DNA of 64,000 nucleotides from positions 9,644,842-9,708,841 of the forward strand of contig CAIIXF020000011.1 of assembly GCA_903813345.2 (NCBI GenBank), written 5' to 3'. The notes beneath the pieces are model-generated. The model did no database searches. It was not told the DNA's origin and saw only the letters and a list, made by a program, of their open reading frames with translations. The position numbers and the translations under genes were made by a program. Origin of the DNA: Owenia fusiformis (Eukaryota > Annelida > Polychaeta > Sabellida > Oweniidae). How positions within the stretch are numbered: the first letter of the stretch is position 1; the number at the start of each line of letters is the position of its first letter. Shown one piece after another: positions 1,396 through 63,695 of the stretch.

Positions 1396-3341
1396 CCTCA
1401 TCACAAAGTTCCTGTCACCTAAGTTAAGTAATCTTGTTGAGTTATCTTAGTTATTTGGTTAAGTTATCTTAGTTATTCCATATGGGGTCATCTACCAGCT
1501 AGACATGTTTTCCATCTATGGTTTAGGAGCGGCAGGTTTTCTCGTTAGTGGGACACCTTCCATTTTGATTGAACCGGTGGATTTTGTTGGCCGACCCATT
1601 ATTCTGGAGTGAAGGAACCTGGAATCTGCTAGGAGGCTGGATGGCTAAACATGTCTTAACACTTGATCAAGTGTTGGGAGGCCTTCCCCTGTTCATGTTT
1701 TATGTTGTCCCGATTGATTTTGAGGAATATCTAAGAATGGCATCGTTGAGCATGGGTCATTCTGATCCATTGCATTGAGAGCTCTGGTTTACTTGGTCAT
1801 ACCGTTTGATGTTCCTCGTAGTACCTCCACTGTGATTCTGATGATCAGTGTCTATCAATCTCTAGATGCATGGGTTTCAGGTATCAATTCCTTGTAAGTC
1901 CCGACCAACAGTTTCCAAGTTGGATTCTTATTGTTGAGCTTGGTTCTTTGTTTTGCCTATATTCTGATGGCTGGTGAAAGCATTCTTTACTTGCAGGTCA
2001 AAATGGTGGGTCTTGCACCCACCAGGAGGAGGTATTCTGAATTTTCTTTCTTCAATGCATGCTGTGGTGCCGGCATGCATTGGGTCGTTCTGGAGGGGTA
2101 TCGTTGAGCTCTGGTGAAGGTCCACTCATTTTTACTTGCTCGTATTGTAATGTTAGTAGTTAGCTATGACGGATATAGTGTGATCCAGAGATCTCGTGAG
2201 GACGCAGCAAGAGTTCACTTGGATCTGTACGGAATGGCCTTGGGGTTGATACATGTTACCTTGCACTCTTTAGGTAGGTAGACATTGCTTATCAGTGTTA
2301 CAGTAAAGGTACTATTGGGAATTGACAGTGGTATGGTCTTGTATTTCATCTTTTTAATGTGATGTATCCTAATTATGCATGGCCGAGGATGTCATTCTTG
2401 TTATTCTTCTTAATCTCTCTGGACAGCATACAGCATGAGCAGGGGGATGGTCACCCAATGTTTGATCTTTTGTTAAGGTGTGTTGGCTTGAAAGCTTCCT
2501 AACAGATTCTATGTTCTGACATGAAAGAATAATGGAATCCACCTGGTTTTATCAAAATGGAAGTAATGTGTGCTATATTTGGAAAATATTGTCTTCATAT
2601 TTTTTTTTATAAACTCATTTTCACCTGAGATTTAACATACCTTGGTATGTTAGTCTCAGTTTTCGGATACCGATTCTCTTTTTTGGTGCGAGTTGGTAGA
2701 TGATCTTAAGTTTCATCAAATCATCATCAATTTTTCAATTTGACTGTTTTTTTCTTGTTTTGAGGTCAGTGTTAATGCGACCATGTTTTGGTCCAATAAG
2801 CAATCAACCATCTAGGTATTTACGACCTAGAATCTGATTGATAAAGGCAACTTGGCAACTTTTTTGCAAATGATAATCCCTTGCATGCTTTGGAGTTAAG
2901 GTAGACAGTAAAATCATTTTCTCATTGCAGGTGTTTTGAAGAGGGTGAAAGACTGCTCCTTGCCTGAACTACAACTACTACTGTTGCATGCGGAAGTTAC
3001 TAATAAATGAATTCTCTTTTCACAGGACCATACACCCACCAGAAGAATCAGCTATACAGCGCTGGAAGCAGTATTTTTTACCTAGTTAAGATGTATTACT
3101 ATGTGTACATGTACCTTACTCCATCCCTCCTAATTGATTTGAATTTTTGCAATATATTTAAATCGTAATATTAACAAGTACTACAGCACCTTTTTTGTAT
3201 TTCCAGCAAAGCAGGTTCTTGGCTGCAACACAAGGAACAGTGGTTCTGTTTGCATGTGTTTGGTAATTTTCATTCTGAGACTTTGAAAACTTACCAACAA
3301 AATAGTTCTAGCTCTATCAATTTGGTCTTGATCATTTGAAT

Positions 3342-4539: not shown

Positions 4540-5044
4540 ATTTGCCTTTAGCATGGGGTTGATCAGCCCAATAGAATCTGAGCCACAAACTGGAAGCCAT
4601 GAAACCAACTGGAATGGAAAATGCTGTCTGGAAAATCATCCATCCCCTGGAAGAGGAGTCACCCTCATAAAGATGCAGAATCATTTGAAGACGAGCCATC
4701 CACTGAAGATGAGGCAACCACTAGAATATTAGTCAGCTCCTGGAATATGAGCCATCTACCAGATTACGAGCCATTTGCAAAAAGTCAAGCCACTCATCTG
4801 AAGACAAGCTGCTCTCTGAAAGATGATCCATTCGCTGGAAGATGATCCATCCGCTGGAAGATGATCCATCCGTTGGAAGATGATCCTCCTGGTGGAAGAT
4901 GATCAAACTGCTGAAAGATGATCTCACTGGAGATTTGCATTCCCTCCCCCCCTGTTATGGAAGTGTCTTGATCACGGAAGCCTTGTTGAAAAATTGAAAA
5001 TTGAAACCATTGCTGAACTTTTCCTATTTTGTATGTACTTTCAG

Positions 5045-5276
5045 ATGCACTCCTCTTCCCCTGAAGATAAGTTTCTGTCCTTTCCTATGAGTTTATGAGA
5101 GTAACTTCAATATGCACAATCTGCCTGCAACGCCTGTTTCTACATAGGATATTGTTATTCTGGTGATGTCTGTGTGTTACTGAAGAAGCATTGCCCTGGA
5201 TGGAAGATTATCTCTAGGATGTGGGGTTCAAGTAAGTACAGTATTTTTATTTCCTAATGTACAATATTTCTTCCAG
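5045..5276 (+). other. Exon-like block, copy 2
   Basis: Essentially identical to 280-511, as expected inside the recent duplication, and therefore not independent evidence of function. The acceptor-like AG ends at 5044 and the donor-like GTAAGT starts at 5232. Confidence 0.35.
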
Positions 5277-5404
5277 ATTTACCTTTAGCTTGGAGGTGGT
5301 CAGCCCACTAGTACCTGAGCCACACACTGGAAGCCACACACTGCAAGGCAAGTCCCCCATTGGAAAGCCAAGTTCCCAGTTGAAGATGATCTATCTGGTG
5401 GAAG

Positions 5405-6236
5405 ATGGCAACCTTGAAGATGATCCAACTGCTAGAAGATGATCCACCCACTGAAAGATAATTCAACCGCTGGAAGATAATTCACCCGCTGGAAGATGAG
5501 CAACCCACTGGAAGATGAGCAACCAACTGGAAGAAGAGCAACCAACTGGAAGAAGAGCAACCAACTGGAAGAAGAGCAACCAACTGGAAGAAGAGTAACC
5601 AACTGGAAGAAGAGCAACCAACTGGAAGAAAAGCAACCAACTAAAAGAAGAGCAACCAACTAAAAGAAGAGCAACCAACTGAAAGAAGAGCAACCAACTG
5701 GAAGAAGAGCAACCAACTGGAAGATGAACAACCAACTGGAAGATGAACAACCAACTGGAAGATGAACAACCAACTGGAAGATGAACAACCAACTGGAAGA
5801 TGAACAACCAACTGGAAGATGAACAACCAACTGGAAGATGAACAACCAACTGGAAGAAGAGCAACCAACTGGAAGAAGAGCAACCAACTGGAAGAAGAGC
5901 AACCAACTGGAAGAAGAGCAACCAACTGGAAGAAGAGCAACCAACTGGAAGATGAACAACCAACTGGAAGAAGAGCAACCAACTGGAAGATGAACAACCA
6001 ACTGGAAGATGAACAACCCACTGGAAGATGAACAACCCACTGCAAGATGAGCATTCCACTGGAAGATGATCCACCTGCTGGCAATTGAGCAACCTGCTGG
6101 AAGATGATCCACCCGCTGAGAGATGAGCCACCCACTGGAAAATGAACAATCCCCTGGAAAATGAGCAATCCCCTGAAAGATAAGCCATGCACTGGAAAAT
6201 GAGTCGCCTCCTGGACTCCACTCCCTTAAAGATGAG
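5405..6236. repeat. 19-bp minisatellite, array 2 (four units longer)
   Basis: Same array as 640-1395 in the second copy of the 4.84 kb unit, expanded by 76 bp (four units) within about 5760-6000. The difference shows replication slippage or unequal exchange after the large duplication. Related degenerate 19-bp units also occur at 4620-4930. Confidence 0.95.
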
Positions 6237-9059
6237 CCTCATCACAAAGTTCCTGTCACCTAAGTTAAGTAATCTTGTTGAGTTATCTTAGTTATTTGGT
6301 TAAGTTATCTTAGTTATTCCATATGGGGTCATCTACCAGCTAGACATGTTTTCCATCTATGGTTTAGGAGCGGCAGGTTTTCTCGTTAGTGGGACACCTT
6401 CCATTTTGATTGAACCGGTGGATTTTGTTGGCCGACCCATTATTCTGGAGTGAAGGAACCTGGAATCTGCTAGGAGGCTGGATGGCTAAACATGTCTTAA
6501 CACTTGATCAAGTGTTGGGAGGCCTTCCCCTGTTCATGTTTTATGTTGTCCCGATTGATTTTGAGGAATATCTAAGAATGGCATCGTTGAGCATGGGTCA
6601 TTCTGATCCATTGCATTGAGAGCTCTGGTTTACTTGGTCATACCGTTTGATGTTCCTCGTAGTACCTCCACTGTGATTCTGATGATCAGTGTCTATCAAT
6701 CTCTAGATGCATGGGTTTCAGGTATCAATTCCTTGTAAGTCCCGACCAACAGTTTCCAAGTTGGATTCTTATTGTTGAGCTTGGTTCTTTGTTTTGCCTA
6801 TATTCTGATGGCTGGTGAAAGCATTCTTTACTTGCAGGTCAAAATGGTGGGTCTTGCACCCACCAGGAGGAGGTATTCTGAATTTTCTTTCTTCAATGCA
6901 TGCTGTGGTGCCGGCATGCATTGGGTCGTTCTGGAGGGGTATCGTTGAGCTCTGGTGAAGGTCCACTCATTTTTACTTGCTCGTATTGTAATGTTAGTAG
7001 TTAGCTATGACGGATATAGTGTGATCCAGAGATCTCGTGAGGACGCAGCAAGAGTTCACTTGGATCTGTACGGAATGGCCTTGGGGTTGATACATGTTAC
7101 CTTGTACTCTTTAGGTAGGTAGACATTGCTTATCAGTGTTACAGTAAAGGTACTATTGGGAATTGACAGTGGTATGGTCTTGTATTTCATCTTTTTAATG
7201 TGATGTATCCTAATTATGCATGGCCGAGGATGTCATTCTTGTTATTCTTCTTAATCTCTCTGGACAGCATACAGCATGAGCAGGGGGATGGTCACCCAAT
7301 GTTTGATCTTTTGTTAAGGTGTGTTGGCTTGAAAGCTTCCTAACAGATTCTATGTTCTGACATGAAAGAATAATGGAATCCACCTGGTTTTATCAAAATG
7401 GAAGTAATGTGTGCTATATTTGGAAAATATTGTCTTCATATTTTTTTTTATAAACTCATTTTCACCTGAGATTTAACATACCTTGGTATGTTAGTCTCAG
7501 TTTTCGGATACCGATTCTCTTTTTGGTGCGAGTTGGTAGATGATCTTAAGTTTCATCAAATCATCATCAATTTTTCAATTTGACTGTTTTTTCTTGTTTT
7601 GAGGTCAGTGTTAATGCGACCATGTTTTGGTCCAATAAGCAATCAACCATCTAGGTATTTACGACCTAGAATCTGATTGATAAAGGCAACTTGGCAACTT
7701 TTTTGCAAATGATAATCCCTTGCATGCTTTGGAGTTAAGGTAGACAGTAAAATCATTTTCTCATTGCAGGTGTTTTGAAGAGGGTTAAAGACTGCTCCTT
7801 GCCTGAACTACAACTACTACTGTTGCATGCGCAAGTTACTAATAAATGAATTCTCTTTTCACAGGACCATACACCCACCAGAAGAATCAGCTATACAGCG
7901 CTGGAAGCAGTATTTTTTACCTAGTTAAGATGTATTACTATGTGTACATGTACCTTACTCCATCCCTCCTAATTGATTTGAATTTTTGCAATATATTTAA
8001 ATCGTAATATTAACAAGTACTACAGCATCTTTTTTGTATTTCCAGCAAAGCAGGTTCTTGGCTGCAACACAAGGAACAGTGGTTCTGTTTGCATGTGTTT
8101 GGTAATTTTCATTCTGAGACTTTGGAAACTTACCAACAAAATAGTTCTAGCTCTATCAATTTGGTCTTGATCATTTGAATATTATTAATATTGCTAGCTT
8201 TTAAAGTAACAATTCATAGTTCAATTCATAGTTATTAGTAAACTGTACTTACTCAGCAATGATTTGATTTTTTATGGCGCCACAAGAAGTGGTGACATAT
8301 ATTCTCAAACTATTCTGTTGACAAAAACTTCTTCGTGGATGGTGGTAACAAATGGCCTGTGGTGACATTTTGCATGTTAATGCATTGACTTAAAAGCCGT
8401 ATGTAAATATACTCATATCTGAAAAATGGCCAGTTCAGACAGTTGGGTATATTAACTTATCGCTTTTAAGAAAAAAGTCCAATTATTGCTGACTTTTTTC
8501 TTTTTTTAAGTACTTCCAGGTCGTAACAATCTGACAATTTCTAAAAAGATCAACAATCTGTTTGTAACGTCTGTAACTACATAGCATATAATTACCACTC
8601 CAAGGGACAAGTGGTCGCAGATTAAGCAGCAATTGGAATGTTGTATCCACAAAGGTGAGGTAAGCTAGTTATAAGCCATCTCACAGTCACAGATAATGTG
8701 TATATTTGAAATTGCGGGGGGGGGGGGGGGCGTGGTTGTAATGTTTAAACTTTAGAGGGTTTTTAACTTTACCAGTTTTTGGTTTTCGGGGTTGTTTTGA
8801 TACTTTGTTTTTGGTCTTCGCCATATGTTTAATGTTAGCCTCAGTCTTACTGTTTCTTTTAGGGGTTGATCACTTGAAAGGTATAATTTTGTAAGGATTT
8901 TTGGTTACAATTTGAAAAAGTGATATGCTAAATATTAAATTGCCGTTTGGTGTCTGTAACAAATGGCAGAGTTATATTTTGCATGTTCACTCCTTGTTCT
9001 ATTTAAGTTCTCTTTAAATCATCTCTTAAATCATACAGTAGTTGTTGATTTTCCCTCAT

Positions 9060-24693: not shown

Positions 24694-24740
24694 ATAGTTT
24701 TTCCTTATTTTTGCGATTCTGACACTACACGTTAATGATT

Positions 24741-25579
24741 AGCCTTGCCCTAGTTGGTCTCGTTTACTTATCTTGATTTCTATTATGACCGCCTTGTACC
24801 CAAGCGAAAGCCACGTGCTTTACCGACTCAATGTTTATGTCGGTAAAATTTGACCAATCAACGACGGCCCTGCAGCGTTGGCTCATTATTATGCACGGTC
24901 AAAAGCAAGTACACTTTTCACCGGGACCTTTCACGAACAAATCTTGCATGAATTCATCATGGCAATACAAATATTTTATCAGATAAATATCAATCAGAGT
25001 TTAGTGGATGCCGGAGCATCGATCGGATAACCGGAGGTGAGAAAATTTCAACAATAAACGTTGAAATGATCGCTGAATTCAAATGATCGAACATCAGGCT
25101 GAGATTCAATCACCGATCGACGACTACATGCAGACATGACCCGCTACATTGGACAAGGTCTTCGTGCATTTTCATCGCGAAATCAGTTTTAAATCAACAT
25201 TGAATCGCATGATTTAATTTATATTAATGACTCTTACATTCCAATGTACATTTAATTACATAATATATTGTAACTCTAAAGAAACACTAGATCAGATCAT
25301 TGAATTTCAAGTCATAGACGGGACGGGAAGTTTGCTTTATTTATGCCGGTCAACCTGATAACGTTTTGATTGGTCAATCAGCCTGAAGTCACACGTCGTG
25401 TCCACGCCGCATCTGTCAATCAATAAGGTTTCGCGATACCCCTGATAGCGTAGGTATTATGGAAATCTCGAAACCGTTGAATATCTCAGCATAATATCAG
25501 CGGAGATGTATTGGATTGTACAAGGCGATAATAATTCAAGATCAGATAAGTAAAAAAATACCGACTTGGGCAAGGCTAT
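24741..25579. mobile_element. TIR element with ~9-bp target duplication (TTAATGATT)
   Basis: The ends AGCCTTGCCCTAGTTGGT... and ...ACTTGGGCAAGGCT form inverted repeats of about 60 bp that also share CTTATCTGATTT and GCCTTGTAC. TTAATGATT stands directly before the left end (24732-24740) and, after two extra bases, after the right end (25580-25588). A 9-bp duplication would fit Mutator-like elements. The two-base offset and lack of coding sequence keep this tentative. Confidence 0.6.
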
Positions 25580-34182: not shown

Positions 34183-34872
34183 TAAAACACGGTGTATAAC
34201 CCAAACGCTCCTACATGCACGACGGAGCGTTTCATTACTGAAATTAAACAAAGAAACGCTCCGGTGTAGGAAAACTGTCTGGCGGGAATGATGAGCCGTC
34301 TGACAATTTCCCCAATAATGGGAATAAGAGGTATGAGTTACATATTTCGAGTATACCATTCGATGGGCGTGATATTCATGTTGTACGTGGCTGGCTGTTG
34401 ACGTTTGAAGCAATTAGGAAGAGCTGTACGAAGCAGTATAGTTATCAAAATTCAAAAACGTATTTGTCATTCTACCGGTCAAAACCCCTTTTGTCGATAC
34501 ATGTGATTAGTTGAGCCAAGATTAGAGCACCAACGTATATTTTAGTCAAATTCCAATGCTTCAACGCACCATACATTATCGTAATAGTGATTTGATGACC
34601 GAAAATCCAGTCTTAAAAATGATGACATTCTCATATTCAAGAAACGCTCCGATCTGGTTAACACAGTGAATTGGAAACGCTCCGGTAGTCTAGATCAGTT
34701 AAGGAAATATATAGCTTGCCTTTCCTTTTCATGAAGAGAAAGAAAAGATCTATCATACCCCTTGGCATCAATAGAAGAAAGATTAATTCACATATAAATT
34801 TTCGTTTTTTTCTATAGTTTTATGATTTAGCACATTATGTAGGCATGACATCATCTAATGTATAGGCTTTAA

Positions 34873-34980
34873 TCAGCTAGTTGCACGTTTAGCACCACCA
34901 GGTTCAGATGTTTCAATTTGCCTAACAAGTACAACACGTTTTTGAGAGATAGATTCGATTCGGAACTCTTCTCTAATAAT
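34873..34980 (-). CDS. Exon 2 of the small gene-like unit inside the Transib-like element
   Basis: A good acceptor (TTTTGATATCATTTTCAG) ends at 34981 and is followed in phase 0 by 35 codons and TGA at 34873-34875. The peptide (IIREEFRIESISQKRVVLVR, then ...GGAKRATS) has the balanced, charged composition of a real C-terminus, unlike chance frames in this AT-rich window. With exon 1 the product would be about 45 residues over a 393-nt intron. Family unknown. It may equally be the remains of a longer captured gene. Confidence 0.4.
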   Translation of the reverse strand: MIREEFRIESISQKRVVLVRQIETSEPGGAKRATS

Positions 34981-35373
34981 CTGAAAATGATATCAAAACA
35001 AAATGGTAAGAGCGTTTCTAAAATTGTGGTCTAAATCGACGGAGCGTTTCGAGGAAAACAAGCGATTTCTCGAGAACAAGTAATGCATTTGGACTGAGAT
35101 TTTAGGAAATGAGAATATACGAGTTTGTGATCTACTACTTTAACAGAAAGATTAACGTTTTCATAGAAATACTAGTTTAATCCGTAATTTGTGGTCAAAT
35201 CTCATCTTCAGATTCATTCGATCTACACTACGGAGCTTTGATCAAGCAAATAACAGTTTACCACCAGAATTTGAATAAATAAGATCTTTGCTCACGGTAT
35301 TGTCCATCGAATGGTACATAATATTTAACCATGACATATGATATGTAAGAGAAACGAGAGAAACAATACTTAC

Positions 35374-35403
35374 GGTCATAGTAGAATCTTCATTAGCCGC
35401 CAT
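35374..35403 (-). CDS. Exon 1 of a small gene-like unit inside the Transib-like element
   Basis: ATG at 35403 sits in AAATAAAATGGCGGC, 78 bp from the element end. Ten codons (MAANEDSTMT) run to a strong donor, GTAAGT, at 35373-35368, leaving phase 0. A matching phase-0 acceptor and coding stretch lie at 34873-34980. No relative is recognised. The whole unit could be a captured host gene fragment under the promoter activity of the element end. Confidence 0.4.
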
Positions 35404-35514
35404 TTTATTTCGCTCTGGAGCATTTCCGCGTAAATGTAACGCTCCGTCGTGCATGTAGGAGCGTTTGGGTTATACACCGTGTAAAAGGAGGATGGCATTT
35501 TTGTGTAAAATACA

Positions 35515-35800
35515 GGCGCTTTTTTTTCAAAATCATCTCCAAGTTCTCAAAAGTTCAGATCTGGCTATAGATTTGACCTTCAATGACATTCTCAAGGTCA
35601 AAAAGGTCTTTTTTCAACTTGGTTCAAATTGACCAAGTTTTTTTCAAAATCGTCTACAAGTTCTCAGAAGTTCAAATCTGACTTTAGATTTGAGATTTCA
35701 CCTTCAATGACCTTCTCAGGGTAAAAAAACTTGCTTCAATAAAACCCTTTTTTTCAAAATCATCTACAGAGTTCTCAGAAATTCAAATCTAACTTAGATT
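35515..35800. repeat. ~110-bp imperfect tandem repeat, about three units
   Basis: Units of TTTTTTTCAAAATCATCTAC, AGTTCTCAGAAGTTCAAATC and GATTTGACCTTCAATGACCT. No coding sequence. Confidence 0.75.
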
Positions 35801-61025: not shown

Positions 61026-61061
61026 TGACTTTTCAGTCAAAACCAGATAAATTCTGACACT

Positions 61062-63695
61062 ATGGTAAATGACACAGGGTCAGTGGAGACAATGGTAAAT
61101 GACACATGATCATTGGAGACTTGGTAAATGACACAGGGTCAGTGGAGACTATGGTAAATGACACATGATCAGTGGAGACTATGGTAAATGACACAGGGTC
61201 AGTGGAGACTATGGTAAATGACACTGGATCAGTGGAGACTATGGTAAATGACACATGATCAGTGGAGACTATGGTAAATGACACCGGATCAGTGGAGACT
61301 ATGGTAAATGACACAGGGTCAGTGGAGACTATGGTAAATGACACATGATCAGTGGAGACTATGGTAAATGACACAGGGTCAGTGGAGACTATGGTAAATG
61401 ACACTGGATCAGTGGAGACTATGGTAAATGACACCGGATCAGTGGAGACTATGGTAAATGACACAGGGTCAGTGGAGACTATGGTAAATGACACAGGGTC
61501 AGTGGAGACTATGGTAAATGACACCGGATCAGTGGAGACTATGGTAAATGACACAGGGTCAGTGGAGACTATGGTAAATGACACATGATCAGTGGAGACT
61601 ATGGTAAATGACACAGGGTCAGTGGAGACTATGGTAAATGACACTGGATCAGTGGAGACTATGGTAAATGACACCGGATCAGTGGAGACTATGGTAAATG
61701 ACACAGGGTCAGTGGAGACTATGGTAAATGACACAGGGTCAGTGGAGACTATGGTAAATGACACAGGATCAGTGGAGACTATGGTAAATGACACAGGATC
61801 AGTGGAGACTATGGTAAATGACACAGGATCAGTGGAGACTATGGTAAATGACACAGGGTCAGTGGAGACTATGGTAAATGACACATGATCAGTGGAGACT
61901 ATGGTAAATGACACCGGATCAGTGGAGACTATGGTAAATGACACAGGGTCAGTGGAGACTATGGTAAATGACACATGATCAGTGGAGACTATGGTTAATG
62001 ACACAGGATCAGTGGAGACTTGGAAAATGATACCGGATCAGTGGAGACTATGGTAAATGACACAGGGTCAGTGGAGACTATGGTAAATGACACAGGATCA
62101 GTGGAGACTATGGTAAATGACACATGATCAGTGGAGACTATGGTTAATGACACAGGGTCAGTGGAGACTATGGTAAATGATACCGGATCAGTGGAGACTA
62201 TGGTAAATGACACATGATCAGTGGAGACTATGGTAAATGACACCGGATCAGTGGAGACTATGGTAAATGACACAGGGTCAGTGGAGACTATGGTAAATGA
62301 CACATGATCAGTGGAGACTATGGTTAATGACACAGGATCAGTGGAGACTTGGAAAATGATACCGGATCAGTGGAGACTATGGTAAATGTCACAGGATCAG
62401 TGGAGACTATGGTAAATGACACAGGATCAGTGGAGACTATGGTAAATGACACAGGATCAGTGGAGACTATGGTAAATGACACCGGATCAGTGGAGACTAT
62501 GGTAAATGACACAGGATCAGTGGAGACTATGGTAAATGACACAGGATCAGTGGAGACTATGGTAAATGACACAGGATCAGTGGAGACTATGGTAAATGAC
62601 ACGGGATCAGTGGAGACTATGGTAAATGACATGGGATCAGTGGAGACTATGGTAAATGACACAGGATCAGTGGAGACTATGGTAAATGACACAGGATCAG
62701 TGGAGACTATGGTAAATGACACCGGATCAGTGGAGACTATGGTAAATGATACCGGATCAGTGGAGACTATGGTAAATGACACCAGATCAGTGGAGACTAT
62801 GGTAAATGATACCGGATCAGTGGAGACTATGGTAAATGACACCGGATCAGTGGAGACTATGGTAAATGACACCGGATCAGTGGAGACTATGGTAAATGAC
62901 ACAGGATCAGTGGAGACTATGGTAAATGACACCGGATCAGTGGAGACTATGATAAATGACACGGGATCAGTGGAGACTATGGTAAATGACACAGGGTCAG
63001 TGGAGACTATGGTAAATGACACAGGGTCAGTGGAGACTATGGTAAATGACACAGGATCAGTGGAGACTATGGTAAATTACACCGGATCAGTGGAGACTAT
63101 GGTAAATGACACCGGATCAGTGGAGACTATGGTAAATGACACCGGATCAGTGGAGACTATGGTAAATGACACAGGATCAGTGGAGACTATGGTAAATGAC
63201 ACAGGGTCAGTGGAGACTATGGTAAATGACACAGGGTCAGTGGAGACTATGGTAAATGACACAGGATCAGTGGAGACTATGGTAAATGACACAGGATCAG
63301 TGGAGACTATGGTAAATGACACCGGATCAGTGGAGACTATGGTAAATGACACCGGATCAGTGGAGACTATGGTAAATGACACCGGATCAGTGGAGACTAT
63401 GGTAAATGACACAGGATCAGTGGAGACTATGGTAAATGATACCGGATCAGTGGAGACTATGGTAAATGGCACAGGATCAGTGGAGACTATGGTAAATGAC
63501 ACAGGATCAGTGGAGACTATGGTAAATGACACAGGATCAGTGGAGACTATGGTAAATGACACAAGATCAGTGGAGACTATGGTAAATGATACCGGATCAG
63601 TGGAGACTATGGTAAATGACACCGGATCAATGGAGACTATGGTAAATGACACCGGATCAATGGAGACTTGGAAAATGACACAAGATCAGTGGAGT
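61062..63695. repeat. 30-bp minisatellite, about 88 units
   Basis: Unit AGTGGAGACTATGGTAAATG + ACACAGGGTC; variants end ACACAGGATC, ACACCGGATC, ACACTGGATC or ACACATGATC. Because 30 is divisible by three, both strands stay open: SVETMVNDTG repeats on plus, SFTIVSTDPV on minus. CATGATC variants put TGA into the plus frame, and at least four 29-bp units (near 61110, 62010, 62340 and 63665) shift every frame, so there is no sign of coding selection. Higher-order copies: a 240-bp block near 61332 and 61572, and a 329-bp block ending at 62030 and 62359. Confidence 0.95.

Follow-up and report, generated by a model that had tools for sequence, protein, structure and literature searches.

A recently mobile 1294-bp element of Owenia fusiformis with CACGGTG ends and 5-bp target duplications, probably derived from a large two-gene transposon encoding a YqaJ-bearing protein

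Which transposase moved a short DNA element whose ends look like those cut by RAG proteins? The question is raised by a non-autonomous element of 1294 bp at positions 34188-35481 (forward strand) of a 64,000-nucleotide stretch of the genome of the annelid Owenia fusiformis (C11:9644842-9708841, here called the window; the genome comprises 498 Mb in 525 contigs). From the heptamer at its ends and the 5-bp duplication beside them, the original prediction had taken the element for a Transib-like, RAG-related one and had supposed that a RAG1-like transposase is, or recently was, active in this genome. We find that the element is non-autonomous and probably arose by internal deletion from a large cut-and-paste DNA transposon with two genes. 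It resembles RAG-type elements in its ends and is not filed as Transib, because the longer relative carries another kind of protein.

The predicted outline of the element was borne out by the sequence and by inverted-repeat comparison. The inverted ends (34188-34231 and 35438-35481) begin CACGGTG and are perfect over 44 bp, the terminal arms extend to 49-50 bp at 98% identity, and TAAAA abuts the element on each side as a 5-bp target-site duplication. Sites of the AAACGCTCC type (at most 1 mismatch) occur 10 times in the 1294 bp, versus 0.22 on average in 200 sequences randomised by a first-order Markov model, and may be subterminal repeats bound by the transposase or by the C2H2 protein described below. 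The features of the element are as follows.

34183-34187, no strand: left 5-bp target-site duplication TAAAA (sequence; exact 5-bp duplication in 37 of 39 copies)
34188-35481, forward strand: non-autonomous element, 1294 bp (sequence and genome copies; 30 full-length copies aligned)
34188-34236, forward strand: left terminal inverted repeat beginning CACGGTG, perfect over 44 bp and 98% identical over 49 bp (inverted-repeat comparison)
34203-34232, no strand: inverted pair AAACGCTCC...GGAGCGTTT within the left end (repeat search)
Starts at 34254, 34642, 34675, 35009, 35041, 35417, 35437 and 35458: more AAACGCTCC-type sites with at most 1 mismatch (repeat search)
35433-35481, reverse strand: right terminal inverted repeat (inverted-repeat comparison)
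35482-35486, no strand: right 5-bp target-site duplication TAAAA (sequence)

A search of the genome with the end and a tabulation of the flanking 5-mers, as the original prediction had proposed, bore out both the duplication and the recent activity. The 24-mer end occurs 490 times at 1 mismatch or fewer versus 0 times for the reversed control, so the inverted ends are not due to chance; 404 ends match the 24-mer exactly (131, 165 and 108 by preceding base), and the 490 ends correspond roughly to 245 elements. Both ends were read in 39 copies, a non-random sample made up of the best matches, the first-listed ends (mostly on contigs C1-C3) and pairs with large spacing; the end lists cover part of the occurrences, and the large-spacing pairs C6:32241911-32245097 and C7:24665823-24669142 lie outside the copies read. 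An exact 5-bp duplication was present in 37 of these 39 copies, none of which showed a 6-, 7- or 8-bp match, and the exceptions were L028 (4 of 5 positions mismatched, no duplication) and L043 (3 of 5 mismatched); L044 and L049, which keep one end only, were excluded from the count. The 37 duplicated 5-mers are varied, with 21% G+C. A 3-bp duplication with ends ACACGGTGT would suit the window copy and those copies whose 5-mer has the form T...A, and is ruled out by 5-mers such as AACAC, TGATG and ACTCT. Two paralogous empty sites hold the 5-bp site once, the site differing by substitutions in both: one lies in L057 (84% over 239 columns), and the other, uninterrupted at window positions 24739-24790, matches the insertion site of a 670-bp copy in L015 (86.5% over 52 columns).

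The family behaves like a 5-bp-duplicating cut-and-paste transposon and has spread recently. That it moved recently follows from the alignment of 30 full-length copies, which differ by 2.9% on average, and from one pair (L006 and L007, on contigs C11 and C1 and with unlike duplications) that differs by 0.08%. A search for other families sharing the first 13 bp of the end gave 1 match versus 5 in the control. At L054, two copies of the element stand in the same orientation, 295 bp apart (202-1493 and 1789-3080), each with its own exact 5-bp duplication.

The origin of the window element is suggested by a longer relative. A head-to-head end pair at C3:22030556-22041577 spans 11.0 kb, has the same ends and is flanked by a 5-bp duplication (ACCAC/ACCAC) that is among the 37 exact ones. 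It contains two convergent genes: gene 1 encodes a large protein whose nuclease domain is YqaJ/lambda-exonuclease-like, and gene 2 encodes a C2H2 zinc-finger protein. At its two ends, the outermost 596 bp on one side match the window element at 82%, and the outermost 546 bp on the other at 79%. On the left, the homology runs past exon 1 of gene 1 (MAGGNDDLSNNFPNIGTKR, donor GTATGT) and the acceptor and ends at the first ATG of exon 2; on the right, it spans exon 1 of gene 2, a GTAAGT donor, the intron, a TTTTCAG acceptor and roughly the first 12 codons of exon 2 (splice sites read by eye on both sides). The corresponding parts of the window element are these.

34275-34330, forward strand: remnant of gene 1 exon 1 (in the C3 alignment MAGGNDDLSNNFPNIGTKR and then GTATGT, exon by eye; in the window CTG at the start codon and GTATGA after)
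34733-34783, forward strand: remnant of the beginning of gene 1 exon 2, a basic stretch (the C3 acceptor AG is AT in the window; BLAST homology ends at element position 596)
34784-34943, no strand: centre without a BLAST counterpart in the C3 element, the internal deletion junction region (BLAST and alignment)
34944-34980, reverse strand: remnant of the start of gene 2 exon 2 (IIREEFRIESIS versus MIRDELGIEPIS in C3, preceded by a TTTTCAG acceptor; translation by eye)
35374-35403, reverse strand: gene 2 exon 1, MAANEDSTMT (MAAFEDRTMT in C3), then a GTAAGT donor (sequence and C3 alignment)

It is because the starts of both genes are kept and the gene bodies are lost that the window element reads as an internally deleted derivative, and the predicted non-autonomous DNA transposon is upheld to this extent. 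A shared frame of 88 aa (amino acids) includes the gene 1 exon remnant but then continues into the gene 1 intron. Coding capacity of the 1294-bp element itself was considered and rejected, as the two open reading frames (ORFs) tested (92 and 70 aa) had no Pfam match at E values up to 1. A nine-residue match in the C3 element, DFCHLLLNI, falls in stop-interrupted frames and was discarded as chance.

If the C3 genes were a separate transposon nested in a window-type element, they would be uninformative on its transposase. Nesting does occur in the family, since four large-spacing copies (L052, L053, L055 and L058+L059) are window-type elements interrupted by other DNA. In all four the element resumes on both sides of the insert, with a 2-5 bp overlap, whereas the C3 copy is without element positions 597-756; moreover, the limits of the C3 homology are the first ATG in exon 2 of gene 1 and a point inside exon 2 of gene 2, and the shared ends include splice sites and partial exons. 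We consider nesting at C3 very unlikely. The insert in L058+L059 (817-12184) is 11.4 kb of DNA of another kind at element positions 736-738, with no frame longer than 131 aa.

What kind of protein, then, would the full-length elements encode? Gene 1 of the C3 element is represented by two long frames (559 and 489 aa) plus one of 128 aa, and gene 2 encodes C2H2 fingers (PF00096, E = 5.4e-7). The 489-aa frame matched YqaJ at 17.5 bits (E = 0.005, below the cut-off) and a RecE-like exonuclease PHROG at E = 7.5e-4. A relative at C11:10096043, a single frame of 1438 aa, is better preserved than the C3 copy; 1345 aa of it (L060) are collinear with the two long C3 frames at 28% and 33% identity and matched YqaJ (PF09588) at 35.9 bits, versus a cut-off of 22 (E = 1.1e-8), and the lambda-exonuclease family TIGR03033 at E = 5.4e-6 (26.6 bits, below the curated cut-off of 68.05). 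Matches to the nuclease part numbered 11 in the genome, in 8 loci by our own grouping. All 8 have a match to the N-terminal part upstream on the same strand (7.3 kb away at C5:40974758), and three loci consist of one frame each (1221, 1438 and 1467 aa). Scoring of 78 candidates out of 1926 gave at least 81 protein matches, of which 18 are confined to residues 1-95, the part common to short elements. Single-protein scans of viral and genome contigs gave no matches, nor did a phage tblastn. In the C11 relative, a C2H2-like CxxC...H stretch (L062 with L060) stands in frame just upstream of the large-protein frame, unlike the C3 element, in which the fingers are in a separate convergent gene.

The order of motifs in L060 is D311 (VIDGKK), the nuclease (510-662), D864 (YDGQW) and DFSH (1244-1247), so that the nuclease falls between two conserved 'DG' motifs; NENFFGEL ('...ENFF') was seen in the C3 copy only. 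A C5 relative at 26-28% identity keeps the second 'DG' as 'FDGQF' and the DxxH as 'DFHH', and DFSH was picked as the DxxH motif of L060 because it aligns with this DFHH, at motif level only. By these motifs the large protein reads as a putative DDE/D enzyme.

Several observations weigh against deriving the window element from such a transposon. A single element, that at C3, connects ends of this type with these genes; the similarity of its ends to those of the window element is only about 80%, and no copy near enough to be a direct parent was found. The C3 copy is also defective: the stretch from the second 'DG' motif to 'WYRAEDEPG' of L060, including DxxH, was not found by tblastn. The next best protein match, a fragment on C4 (85% over 94 aa), has no terminal inverted repeat in the 401 bp read. 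[CD]xxH is present five times in L060, which makes DxxH alone a weak sign. Apart from its nuclease, the large protein matched entries of Pfam, NCBIfam and PDB only weakly and below threshold, so that it is read as DDE/RNase H from its motifs.

The starting supposition was a transposase of the Transib or RAG1-like type, cleaving at the heptamer CACGGTG and integrating with a stagger of 5 bp, and RAG-like (RAGL) elements do combine such CAC...GTG ends, 5-bp duplications and two convergent genes in passages of PMC7204232. The likeness of the ends is limited to CAC, however, the window end CACGGTGTATAACCCAA departing beyond it (by eye) from the published protostome RAGL consensus CACTWMCAAACKTYKBB, and here the ends are 49 bp long with a repeated AAACGCTCC motif. 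The search for a RAG1-core-like gene, which the original prediction had also proposed, came back empty. The Pfam RAG1 model (PF12940) had 0 matches in the whole genome, where its controls gave none either; a Transib C-terminal peptide, a probe that finds HzTransib in PDB at E = 1.6e-17, had 0 matches in the genome; and a degenerate DNA pattern for EEAxEARNK at 1 mismatch or fewer had 0 in the whole genome. These searches are without a positive control in a genome and are not decisive alone. The relative with the same ends, however, encodes the YqaJ protein instead of a Transib or RAG1 transposase. Transib-group transposases bear C(2)C and H(3-4)H motifs according to passages of PMC12730594, whereas the protein here has YqaJ and DxxH and, by motif count, no CxxC in the 1345 aa of L060 nor in the 489-aa and 128-aa C3 frames; one HPMFH is present in L060. 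A Transib or RAG1-like enzyme is thus highly improbable, and that part of the original prediction is unsupported. It had itself named a transposase of another superfamily in the longer element as the observation that would tell against it, and this is nearly what was found: the longer relative does encode a different protein, the YqaJ protein, whose reading as a DDE transposase is motif-based.

The subterminal repeats resemble those of hAT elements, and a hAT5-type transposase, or one of another known superfamily, might move the family with the YqaJ protein as an accessory. Matches to hAT C-termini (PF05699) are common in the genome, 146 in number, and by eye one of them (C6:36338393) is 3.7 kb beyond a pair of ends listed at C6:36333181-36334686. 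Families of hAT5 with 5-bp duplications exist, as passages of PMC12730594 state. Nevertheless, no hAT match fell between two ends among the matches listed (by eye), no hAT dimerisation domain was present in the scanned C3 ORFs or in L060, and the large protein itself bears the DGK, DGQW and DxxH motifs. We judge such a transposase unlikely.

Whether the large protein belongs to a lineage already catalogued in Repbase or Dfam (e.g., KolobokE or another group), the family being known by name, was weighed against the known systems. Unnamed proteins of such a look are presumably present in mollusc and cnidarian databases. A TTAA duplication defines Kolobok, whereas the duplications here are varied 5-mers of 5 bp. 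KolobokE is, in passages of PMC9587614, a DDD/E transposon with a lambda-exonuclease-like PD-D/ExK domain and the C/DxxH signature; there, however, the nuclease lies downstream, and here it lies between the first and second 'DG', before YDGQW and DFSH. The duplication of ISL2EU (PHIS), by comparison, is 2 bp long. ISL2EU likewise has a YqaJ exonuclease domain in a eukaryotic DNA transposon (passages of PMC4482050), but with GG ends and with YqaJ in a separate ORF, whereas here the ends are CAC, the duplication is 5 bp and YqaJ is in the same frame as the other motifs of L060. Among the publications listed, none had a title or abstract that dealt with a 5-bp-duplicating element carrying a protein of this kind, Repbase and Dfam being outside this search. 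Membership in a catalogued lineage is possible, though we doubt it.

Other systems share single traits with the family. The putative DxxH motif, a signature that lies between the second D and the last E in the P superfamily, is as in hAT, P, MuDR, Kolobok and Dada. P elements and THAP9 belong to the C/DxxH signature group and, like the family here, have internal deletion derivatives and internal inverted repeats (passages of PMC7776569 and PMC9587614), but they have an 8-bp duplication, a GTP-binding domain between beta5 and alpha4 and no YqaJ. EnSpm/CACTA elements fit in their CAC...GTG ends but duplicate 2-3 bp (3 bp for EnSpm in passages of PMC12730594) versus 5 bp here. As to position, the nuclease would by its motifs sit before the second catalytic D, unlike known insertion domains. 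The insertion point between beta5 and alpha4 comes after that second D. It is between beta5 and alpha4 that known insertion domains lie, in passages of PMC7776569.

If the window element derives from the two-gene transposon, its mobility can be pictured as follows. Transposase would be supplied in trans by a full-length relative, would bind repeats of the AAACGCTCC type in and close to the ends and excise the element, which would be reinserted at target cuts staggered by 5 bp. The transposase would be the large protein of the 11-kb C3 relative and its kin, with a predicted layout of 'VIDGKK', the YqaJ/lambda-exonuclease-like domain, 'YDGQW', 'DFSH' (DxxH) and, in the C3 copy only, '...ENFF'. 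Its exonuclease would likely trim or remove DNA ends or intermediates in excision and repair, and the C2H2 protein would likely aid recognition of the ends. The resemblance to Transib and RAG in CAC...GTG ends, 5-bp duplication and two convergent genes would then be convergence.

Elsewhere in the window, an imperfect tandem repeat of about 111-117 bp (35521-35795) begins about 40 bp past the right end of the element. A block with a 19-bp tandem repeat (34.6 and 38.6 copies) appears to be directly duplicated (about 16-1477 and 4781-6318), with similar repetitive frames on the reverse strand. A 30-bp minisatellite of about 88 copies (61059-63694) has long open frames on both strands, with a GSVETMVNDT repeat on the forward strand, and the last 4 kb of the window have a strong GC skew. 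Rfam and tRNA scans of the window gave no matches.

We know of no insertion domain between the first and second catalytic aspartates. As read from sequence, the family may tentatively represent an undescribed eukaryotic (probably animal) DNA transposon superfamily that came independently by the RAG/Transib hallmarks (CAC...GTG ends, 5-bp duplication and two convergent genes), with a lambda-exonuclease-family domain placed in an RNase H core between those two aspartates, a proposal to which we give somewhat less than even confidence. A RAG/Transib reading readily comes to mind where CAC ends occur together with a 5-bp duplication; judging by this family, the pair would be insufficient for it, as an unrelated protein would go with the same signature. 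A nuclease inside the presumed transposase would also make the link between excision and end processing directly testable.
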